64,000 nt of DNA, from the NCBI GenBank assembly GCA_029552245.1, contig JAKPDW010000027.1, forward strand, positions 1 to 64,000, given 5' to 3'. Source of the stretch: Deltaproteobacteria bacterium (GTDB lineage: Bacteria; Desulfobacterota; Desulfomonilia; UBA1062). The notes under the pieces were generated by a model. The model worked only from the letters and a program-made list of their open reading frames with translations. It was not told the origin of the DNA and made no database searches. Positions 10,734-13,763 of the stretch are shown in pieces (the stretch's first letter is position 1; every line of letters begins with the position of its first letter). Position numbers and translations under genes: made by a program.

Positions 10734-12019
10734 GTCGCCTTCTTGGCCCGGTTGAACACCCCCCACGTCTTGAGCAGGTCGAGGCCGTACTTGAGCTGGT
10801 AGTCGTTCTCGGGCCTCGCCTTGCCGTCCGGGGCCTGGGCGGCCTCGGGTTTCTCGGCGTCGGGCGGCTCGAGGTGGGATTTCAGGTCCTTCTCCCGTAT
10901 GAAGCTCTGGCCCTTCTCCGGCAAGAGGACGGCCTGTTCGACGAAGACGTCCGGCTCGATGCCCTTGGCCTGGATCGAGCGGCCCGAGGGCGTGTAGTAC
11001 CTGGCCACGGTGAGCTTGAGCGCCGAGCCGTCACCGAGCTGGCGGATGGTCTGGACGGAGGCCTTGCCGAAGCTCTTCACCCCCACGATGACGGCCCTCT
11101 CGTTGTCCTGGAGCGCACCTGCGACGATCTCGGCCGCGCTCGCCGTACCGCCGTTGATGAGCACGACCATAGGGAAGTACTCGAACGTGCCGTCCTTGTG
11201 CGCCCTGTACTCGACGTGGTCTTCAGGGTTCCTGCCGTCGGTGTAGACGATCTTGCCCGCCTCCAGGAAGAGGTCGCTCACCGCGATGGCCTGGTCCAAG
11301 AGACCTCCCGGGTTGTACCTGAGGTCGAGGACGAGCCCCTGCAGGCCCCCGGCCTTGAGAAGCTTCTGGACGGCCTTCTTGACCGCGTCCGCCGTGTCGA
11401 CCTGGAAGCTGCGGACCTTGACGTAACCGTAGCCCGGCTCCAGGGTTTGGGACACGACGCTCTCGATGTGGATGGTGGCCCGGGTGATGGTGAGCTCGAG
11501 AGGCTTGTCCAGGGATTCCCGGCCCAGGGTGAGCGTCACCTTCGTCCCCTTGGGACCCCTCAGCAGCTTCACTGCCTCCTCGAGGGTCATGTCCGTGGTG
11601 GACTGGCCGTCGATCTTGAGGATCTTGTCGCCGGGCTTGATGCCCGCCTTGAAGGCCGGGGTGTCCTCGATGGGGGTGATGACCGTGAGCTGGCCGTCCT
11701 TGATGCCCAGCTCGATGCCCAGGCCCCCGAACGACCCGGTGGTGCTGATCTCCATCTCCTTGTAATCCTCCTTGGAGAGGTACGCGGAGTGGGGGTCGAG
11801 CGTGGAGGTCATGCCCTTGATCGCGCCCTCGATGAGTTTCCCCGGCTCCACCTTGTCCACGTAGTACCGTTCGATGAGGTCGAGGCAGTCCGTGAATTTC
11901 TGGAGGCTCGGCAGCATGGGCGAGCTCTCCGCCATGGCGTGCGGGATCGTGTGCAGCGCGACGAGGAGTACGAGCCCTGCCGCTACGAGGCCGGGCAGGA
12001 CGGCCCTGTGTCTTTTCAT
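10730..12019 (-). CDS. ctpA: Carboxy-terminal processing protease CtpA (S41)
   Basis: This is a periplasmic serine protease (429 aa) that trims or degrades proteins from their C-terminus. It has a signal peptide or anchor at residues 1-30 (VLPGLVAAGLVLLVALH, then AMA). An S41 N-terminal helical domain follows (FTDCLDLIERYYVD, LDPHSAYLS), then a PDZ domain (FGGLGIELGIKDGQLTV). The S41 core includes the catalytic Ser in NGGTASAAEI and the catalytic Lys in SFGKASVQ. ATG 12019 was chosen because AGGGGAAAGGAA precedes it. In related genomes this gene directly follows envC; here a 676-base spacer with repeats separates them. Confidence 0.95.
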   Translation of the reverse strand: MKRHRAVLPGLVAAGLVLLVALHTIPHAMAESSPMLPSLQKFTDCLDLIERYYVDKVEPGKLIEGAIKGMTSTLDPHSAYLSKEDYKEMEISTTGSFGGLGIELGIKDGQLTVITPIEDTPAFKAGIKPGDKILKIDGQSTTDMTLEEAVKLLRGPKGTKVTLTLGRESLDKPLELTITRATIHIESVVSQTLEPGYGYVKVRSFQVDTADAVKKAVQKLLKAGGLQGLVLDLRYNPGGLLDQAIAVSDLFLEAGKIVYTDGRNPEDHVEYRAHKDGTFEYFPMVVLINGGTASAAEIVAGALQDNERAVIVGVKSFGKASVQTIRQLGDGSALKLTVARYYTPSGRSIQAKGIEPDVFVEQAVLLPEKGQSFIREKDLKSHLEPPDAEKPEAAQAPDGKARPENDYQLKYGLDLLKTWGVFNRAKKAT

Positions 12020-12229
12020 GGGTTCCTTTCCCCTGGGGCGTGTGGTGTCGATGACCGACCTATAGCACAACTCATGCGGCCGGAAAACACCTGCGGTTCG
12101 TCCCTGTTCCCCCGGTCGGGGCCCTTGCCCGAGGCGCCCTCGGTCACCCCCGCCGAGGGCCGGGAGGCTGATGAAACCCCGGGTGCCGGGCCCTCGGGCG
12201 GGAGGGCCCCGCGTCCTTGGGCCGTGGGA

Positions 12230-12508
12230 CACGGGCCCCCGCTCGTGTGGAGACGTAGCGCATCGTTCGTGCGCAGGGCCATCTCCTGGTCCACGGTCCA
12301 CAGGGCCCCGCTAGCGTGGAGACGCCTTGTATGTCGTGGGCGGTGTTACGGCTATCAACCACAAGCCTCGATCTGTGGAGACGCCGAAACCACGGCCACG
12401 GGCCTCGGGGATCAGAACGCCCGCATGCCCCCGCTCGTGTGGAGACGCCGCCCCATCGCGGCGATTACGACCTCTTCTGGGACGCATGCCCCCGCTCGTG
12501 GGGACGCC
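12230..12508. repeat. Five degenerate 26-28-nt repeats, 31-41-nt spacing (CRISPR I-E-like remnant)
   Basis: Copies lie at 12230-12257, 12299-12326, 12358-12385, 12422-12449 and 12483-12508. The shared core is CCCCGCTCGTGTGGAGACG, with differences in most copies. The core can fold as CCCCGC-TCGT-GTGGAG, with one mismatch and one G-U pair, like the hairpin of type I-E CRISPR repeats. Gaps between copies are 41, 31, 36 and 33 bases. No cas gene, clear leader or intact repeat is present, so if this was a CRISPR array it is a dead fragment. The rest of the spacer between ctpA and envC (12020-12229 and 12509-12695) shows no gene. Confidence 0.65.
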
Positions 12509-12695
12509 CCTGGACCAGGACCCGGCGGGGAGAGGTCGCTCTGTTCGGCCGCGAGGCGCCGGCCCGGAGCCGACCCTCGTGTCATCGCCAGGGTGGAGAC
12601 CCTCGCGGGGGATGTCGTGTGCGGCCCGTGCCTGCGCAGCGGGAGGAGGGCTCGACGGGACGGGCGGGGTCGCGGTCATGAAACCGCCCGGGTTC

Positions 12696-13763
12696 TCACC
12701 GCTTGGAGGAGAGCCACCTGACAGGGTCCTGGGGCTTGTCCTTGTACCTGATCTCGAAGTGGAGGGTGGGCCTGGAAACGTCGCCGCTCGCGCCCACGAG
12801 CGCCACCTCCTCCTGCGCCTTGACCTCTTCCCCCGCCGCCTTGAGCGCCTTCATGAGGTGCCCGTAGACCGTGAAGAGACCGCCCCCGTGGTCTATGATC
12901 ATGGTGTTGCCGAACTTGGGGAGGGTGTCGTAGAAGGCGATCCTGCCCGAGTAGATGGTCTTGACCGGGGTGCCCTCCTGGGCCTCGATGTCCACGCCGT
13001 TGGAGATCTGCGCGTACCCCATGTCCCTGCTGATGCCGAAGCCCCGGACCAGGGACCCCTTCACAGGCCACGGCAGCTCGCCGATCCTCTTGTTCATCCC
13101 CCGGTCGGGCAGCGCCGTCGGCCGCTCCCTGAGCTTCTTCATGAGGGCCTTTATCCTGTTCTCGCAATCCCTCTTCTGGGCGTCGAGAGACGCGATGAGC
13201 CGGGTCTTCTCGTCGTGGCGCTCGTTCAGGTCCCGTATCGCCCGGTCCAGGTCCCTGAGTGCCGCCTCGTGCTGGAGCGTGATCCTGTCGAGGGCATCCC
13301 TCTGTCCCTGCAAGTCTTCCTTGGTTTTCTGGTAGGCCTCGATTCGGTCCAGGTCGTGCGCGATGACCGCGTCCACGTACCCGGAGTACTCGGGGTGCGC
13401 GGCGAGGATGTCGACCATGTCGAGGTAGGCCCCCTTGTAGAAGGCCGCCCACTTGCGCCTGAGCATCCGCCGGGCCTCCCTGAGCGTGCTCTCGGAGGCC
13501 GCGATCCTGGCCTTTTGTTCCTCCATCCGCGCCTTGAGCTCCTTCGACTTCTTCTCGGCCTCGAGCATGTCCCTGCGGGTGAGCTCGATGCGGCGGTCGA
13601 TCTGGGCGAGTCGCCGGTGCTCCGTCTCCTTCTGCTTCTCGATGGCCTTCACCTTCCTGCCCAGTTCCTTGATGTCCGTCTTGGGGTCCGCGGCAGGGGC
13701 ACAGGGGGAGATCAGGGCGATGACGGCCGCCGCTGCGAGTGCCGCCTTCAGCAGCCTACCCAT
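12696..13763 (-). CDS. envC: EnvC-like murein hydrolase activator (degenerate LytM/M23 domain)
   Basis: This periplasmic protein (355 aa) has a signal peptide (LLKAALAAAAVIALISPCAPA) and a long coiled coil (about residues 28-220) interrupted by a short loop, ending in a LytM/M23 domain (about 240-352). The metal ligands of active M23 peptidases are missing: the HxxxD position reads SNGVD, and the HxH position reads TLHFEIR. It should therefore activate amidases rather than cut peptidoglycan itself, as EnvC does. It overlaps ftsX by eight bases, and the FtsEX complex is the known controller of such activators at the division site. Confidence 0.9.
   Translation of the reverse strand: MGRLLKAALAAAAVIALISPCAPAADPKTDIKELGRKVKAIEKQKETEHRRLAQIDRRIELTRRDMLEAEKKSKELKARMEEQKARIAASESTLREARRMLRRKWAAFYKGAYLDMVDILAAHPEYSGYVDAVIAHDLDRIEAYQKTKEDLQGQRDALDRITLQHEAALRDLDRAIRDLNERHDEKTRLIASLDAQKRDCENRIKALMKKLRERPTALPDRGMNKRIGELPWPVKGSLVRGFGISRDMGYAQISNGVDIEAQEGTPVKTIYSGRIAFYDTLPKFGNTMIIDHGGGLFTVYGHLMKALKAAGEEVKAQEEVALVGASGDVSRPTLHFEIRYKDKPQDPVRWLSSKR

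Follow-up and report, generated by a model that had tools for sequence, protein, structure and literature searches.

The window, a 64,000-nucleotide stretch of DNA, carries two minus-strand genes, envC with its stop at 12696 and ctpA with its start at 12019, and the intergenic space between them contains five degenerate direct repeats, all in the same orientation, that span ~280 bases (12230-12509) when read in a 29-nt frame (Table 1). The genes are separated by 676 bp, compared to 82-136 bp in four genomes of the same genus, and similarly short spacing is seen in other genomes of the family in which envC and ctpA are adjacent. In the original prediction, the array interrupts a usually contiguous gene order at this junction. 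Among the genomes compared, the ~550-600-bp expansion that holds the array is unique to the source genome, and a search for the region in 40 relatives found it in none of them (0/40). The lack of an I-E system or matching repeat in the genome, together with the same sequence, free of spacer-like variation, at the same place in close relatives, had been put forward as evidence against a decayed type I-E array. No I-E system was found, which fits a dead array, but the relatives searched do not carry the sequence, the region being simply missing.

The extra DNA is placed between the end of envC and a conserved motif just upstream of ctpA, which reads GTGCTATAGG on the minus strand (window positions ~12052-12073) and TATGCTATAGG in three relatives. 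Each of the five genus members (5/5) keeps this motif in one form or the other, and it could belong to a promoter. No protein families were detected in the intergenic reading frames. Type I-E arrays have an AT-rich leader that adjoins the first repeat; here the GC content of the intergenic region is 71% and such a leader is not evident by reading; it may have been lost. To the right of the array, positions 12520-12575 weakly resemble an ArdC-like antirestriction gene at the nucleotide level (82%, E 0.01). When the whole region was compared with phages using BLASTN, the sole match family, the Caulobacter phiCbK group, mapped to this same segment, which lies outside the array, is GC-rich and was not counted. 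The similarity is possibly due to chance, or the segment could be a further decayed spacer.

Table 1. Coordinates of the repeat copies and gaps in the envC-ctpA intergenic region; + denotes the strand as shown.
Feature	Position	Strand	Description
Expanded envC-ctpA intergenic region	12020..12695		676 bp; contains the array
Repeat copy c1	12230..12258	+	degenerate CRISPR repeat, CACGGGCCCCCGCTCGTGTGGAGACGTAG
Gap 1	12259..12298	+	putative decayed spacer, 40 nt; no match
Repeat copy c2	12299..12327	+	degenerate CRISPR repeat, CACAGGGCCCCGCTAGCGTGGAGACGCCT
Gap 2	12328..12357	+	putative decayed spacer, 30 nt; no match
Repeat copy c3	12358..12386	+	most diverged copy, ACCACAAGCCTCGATCTGTGGAGACGCCG
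Gap 3	12387..12421	+	putative decayed spacer, 35 nt; no convincing match
Repeat copy c4	12422..12450	+	degenerate CRISPR repeat, CGCATGCCCCCGCTCGTGTGGAGACGCCG; reference copy
Gap 4 (spacer 4)	12451..12482	+	exactly 32 nt; phage HNH endonuclease gene fragment
Repeat copy c5	12483..12509	+	terminal copy, 27 nt, 2-nt deletion, CGCATGCCCCCGCTCGTGGGGACGCCC

Structure and uniqueness of the repeat family

CRISPR arrays of any type consist of direct repeats of ~23-50 nt, between which lie unrelated gaps of similar length. The same arrangement of several direct repeats is seen here, with gaps of 40, 30, 35 and 32 nt that are mutually unrelated in sequence, and this lack of similarity among the gaps is unlike the product of a tandem duplication. 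The gap lengths reported earlier (41, 31, 36 and 33) refer to a slightly different frame. Start-to-start periods other than that formed by c4 and gap 4 are 69, ~60 and ~63; copy c3 has a small deletion, and its 5' edge is uncertain by ~2 nt.

The five degenerate repeats of the original prediction are present where it had placed them. The ungapped family of four copies has a score of 80, whereas 1500 dinucleotide-preserving shuffles of the intergenic region never exceeded 71. A separate run of 200 shuffles gave a highest null score of 72 relative to the observed value of 80. Copy c3, which needs a gap to be aligned, has a gapped score of 14 versus a null maximum of 10 (300 shuffles). No more copies of the repeat are detected in the flanks, where the maximum score is 9 and the 95th percentile of the null distribution is 10. 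Within the source genome, the core CCCCGCTCGTGTGGAGACG (allowing up to 2 mismatches) is confined to the array. A lone core match in a second genome (G021, L004) was rejected as an array; it sits in coding-like sequence. Other core matches with 2-3 mismatches are isolated, scattered sites having a frequency close to that of a reversed-pattern control. An intact array with the same repeat is found in none of 395 genomes of the phylum, and an exact pattern scan of IMG/VR gave no such array either.

A spacer from a phage HNH endonuclease gene

Each gap was translated in one or two reading frames, and the resulting degenerate peptide patterns were scanned against IMG/VR viral contigs, with the edges of matches being checked. 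The translation of gap 4 is PHRGDYDLFWD, the motif conserved among phage HNH endonucleases (PHROG 144/2323/589). Its pattern is found in seven IMG/VR contigs, where HRGDYDLFWD lies within the arrangement VDHI/VDHV..HRGDYDLFWD..N(W/H)Q and the proteins have a C..CH or similar metal-binding pair after N(W/H)Q. Two of the seven viral proteins match PHROG HNH endonuclease families (144, 2323 and 589) with best E values of 7e-39 and 7.6e-26, and a third matches annotated HNH endonucleases of GenBank phages. Because the seven contigs are mutually homologous, however, they represent one event and not seven independent ones. A control scan of IMG/VR using the reversed peptide yielded no matches. HNH endonuclease is also the top match by coverage when gap 4 is compared with plasmids using BLASTN, but at E = 6. 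The motif of spacer 4 is absent from other genomes of the class and from the rest of the source genome.

At the level of bases, gap 4 shares 24-29 of its 32 positions with the seven homologues, whereas the flanks agree at only 6-13 of 30 positions on each side, which is about the value expected by chance. An identity that ends at the repeat boundaries is expected for a captured spacer and not for a decayed gene. Gap 4 has the properties of a CRISPR spacer, and its source was a phage HNH endonuclease gene, one that many phages carry. Of the four gaps whose search against phages and plasmids was recommended with the original prediction, one (gap 4) has a mobile-DNA match with edges at the repeat boundaries, and gaps 1-3 have no convincing match by nucleotide or degenerate peptide (one or two frames per gap).

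Subtype and cas genes

Type I-E systems have repeats of 28-29 nt and spacers of 32-33 nt, and the stem of the repeat is palindromic (CCCCGC...GCGGGG). This geometry is exact (29 + 32) for c4 and gap 4, and the other three gaps, at 40, 30 and 35 nt, depart from it. Repeats of 29 nt and of the I-E kind adjoin cas genes in five family or class genomes. Comparing the repeat with four tested I-E repeats gives z values of ~3.2-3.6 in the minus orientation and at most 2.7 in the plus orientation, and z values of up to 2.7 are obtained for I-C repeats, all as part of twenty comparisons that are uncorrected. The C-rich/G-rich core expected for an I-E hairpin is present, but the hairpin itself holds up less well; the stem is imperfect, four copies have in common the sequence GTGGAGACG, which disrupts a perfect I-E palindrome, and the copies that were folded are no more stable than shuffled sequence. 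The canonical type I-E PAM is AAG, located 5' of the protospacer. This triplet precedes the protospacer in one of the seven viral sequences (L113), although these are homologues rather than the identified source phage. Given that the palindrome is imperfect and that an intact array with the same repeat was not found, assignment of the array to subtype I-E is only probable. With the I-E label kept at this strength, the idea of a decayed I-E-like CRISPR is supported by the phage fragment bounded by repeats in gap 4 and by the 29 + 32 unit. Among family and class relatives (L092-L095, L007-L012), long I-E arrays are observed, with ~116 repeats in G010, and other arrays are I-C-like.

Cas1, Cas7e and true Cas3 are found neither in the source genome, which is 99% complete, nor in four genomes of the same genus. 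Matches to TIGR01587 (Cas3) in the genus fall below the cut-off, as is also the case in control genomes free of cas genes, and we take them to be ordinary helicases. Four further family genomes have I-E systems. The missing cas genes concern the activity of the system, not its origin, and the array should be inactive, given the divergence of its repeats and the lack of machinery.

Discussion

We conclude, with a probability of roughly 0.9, that a short remnant of a CRISPR array, most likely of type I-E and without cas genes, lies between envC and ctpA. In the intact state, each 29-nt repeat would have been followed by a spacer of ~32 nt captured from invading DNA, including spacer 4 from a phage HNH endonuclease gene, and the array transcript would have been cut within the repeats to give guide RNAs for a Cascade-Cas3 complex. 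The cas genes may subsequently have been lost, or the array may have arrived without them, and divergence of the repeats together with the missing machinery would have left it no longer functional. It is highly improbable that the array arrived alone, without cas genes, and now has a regulatory role in the cell-division/protease operon.

A CRISPR remnant of some other subtype, such as I-C or one that is mixed or unusual, might also account for the array. The family commonly has I-C arrays, I-C repeats are nearly as similar (z up to 2.7 versus 3.6), and the period of 69 is near the I-C spacing. We consider this unlikely, however, since the best preserved unit has the geometry of type I-E and since I-C repeats of the family end in GTGGATTGAAAC, which none of the copies carries.

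Explanations that dispense with CRISPR altogether have to accommodate spacer 4. The five copies might constitute an intergenic repeat that is either short and selfish or made up of regulatory hairpins, with a spacing near 60 bp arising by chance, and the imperfect palindrome, the lack of cas genes found in the genus and the failure to find the intact repeat anywhere else are consistent with this idea. Nevertheless, the core is confined to the array in this genome, unlike dispersed repeats, the copies are all direct and the gaps are mutually unrelated. Moreover, the fragment of a phage gene bounded by repeats in gap 4 is left unexplained, so that a repeat of this kind is largely refuted by spacer 4 and very unlikely. 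The HNH motif encoded by gap 4 could alternatively derive from a decayed phage HNH endonuclease gene having internal tandem repeats. The sequences flanking the 32 nt, however, contain no HNH remainder when set against the seven homologues, and the intergenic frames encode no protein family, leaving this origin with next to no likelihood.

The CRISPR remnant has counterparts both within and outside the family. Type I-E arrays of the same family, with repeat GTGTTCCCCACATGCGTGGGGATGAACCG in G014 and G020 and ATGTTCCCCGCACACGCGGGGATGAACCG in G010, likewise have a 29-nt repeat, a period of ~61 nt and a C-rich/G-rich core. These arrays are long and regular and occur in genomes with Cas7e and Cas1, whereas the five repeats here have diverged and are irregularly spaced, their palindrome is imperfect, and cas genes are lacking. 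Degenerate repeat clusters, cas-less arrays and degenerate terminal repeats have been described in Escherichia and Salmonella (PMC2886076), and the present array resembles them in its diverged repeats, irregular spacing, lack of cas genes and degenerate terminal repeat. The Escherichia and Salmonella arrays, however, occupy known CRISPR places and have intact versions in sister strains, while no intact version was found here. The array is a new example of this already described degenerate or cas-less kind, and its identification hinges on a single readable spacer.

A single surviving spacer can be enough to identify a decayed array whose repeats have no intact counterpart, and scanning viral contigs with degenerate gap-peptide patterns, followed by a check for sharp edges, could be applied to other suspected CRISPR fossils. 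As for the organism itself, the genus is now without detectable cas genes, and its lineage, or a donor, would once have had CRISPR immunity against a phage carrying an HNH endonuclease gene.
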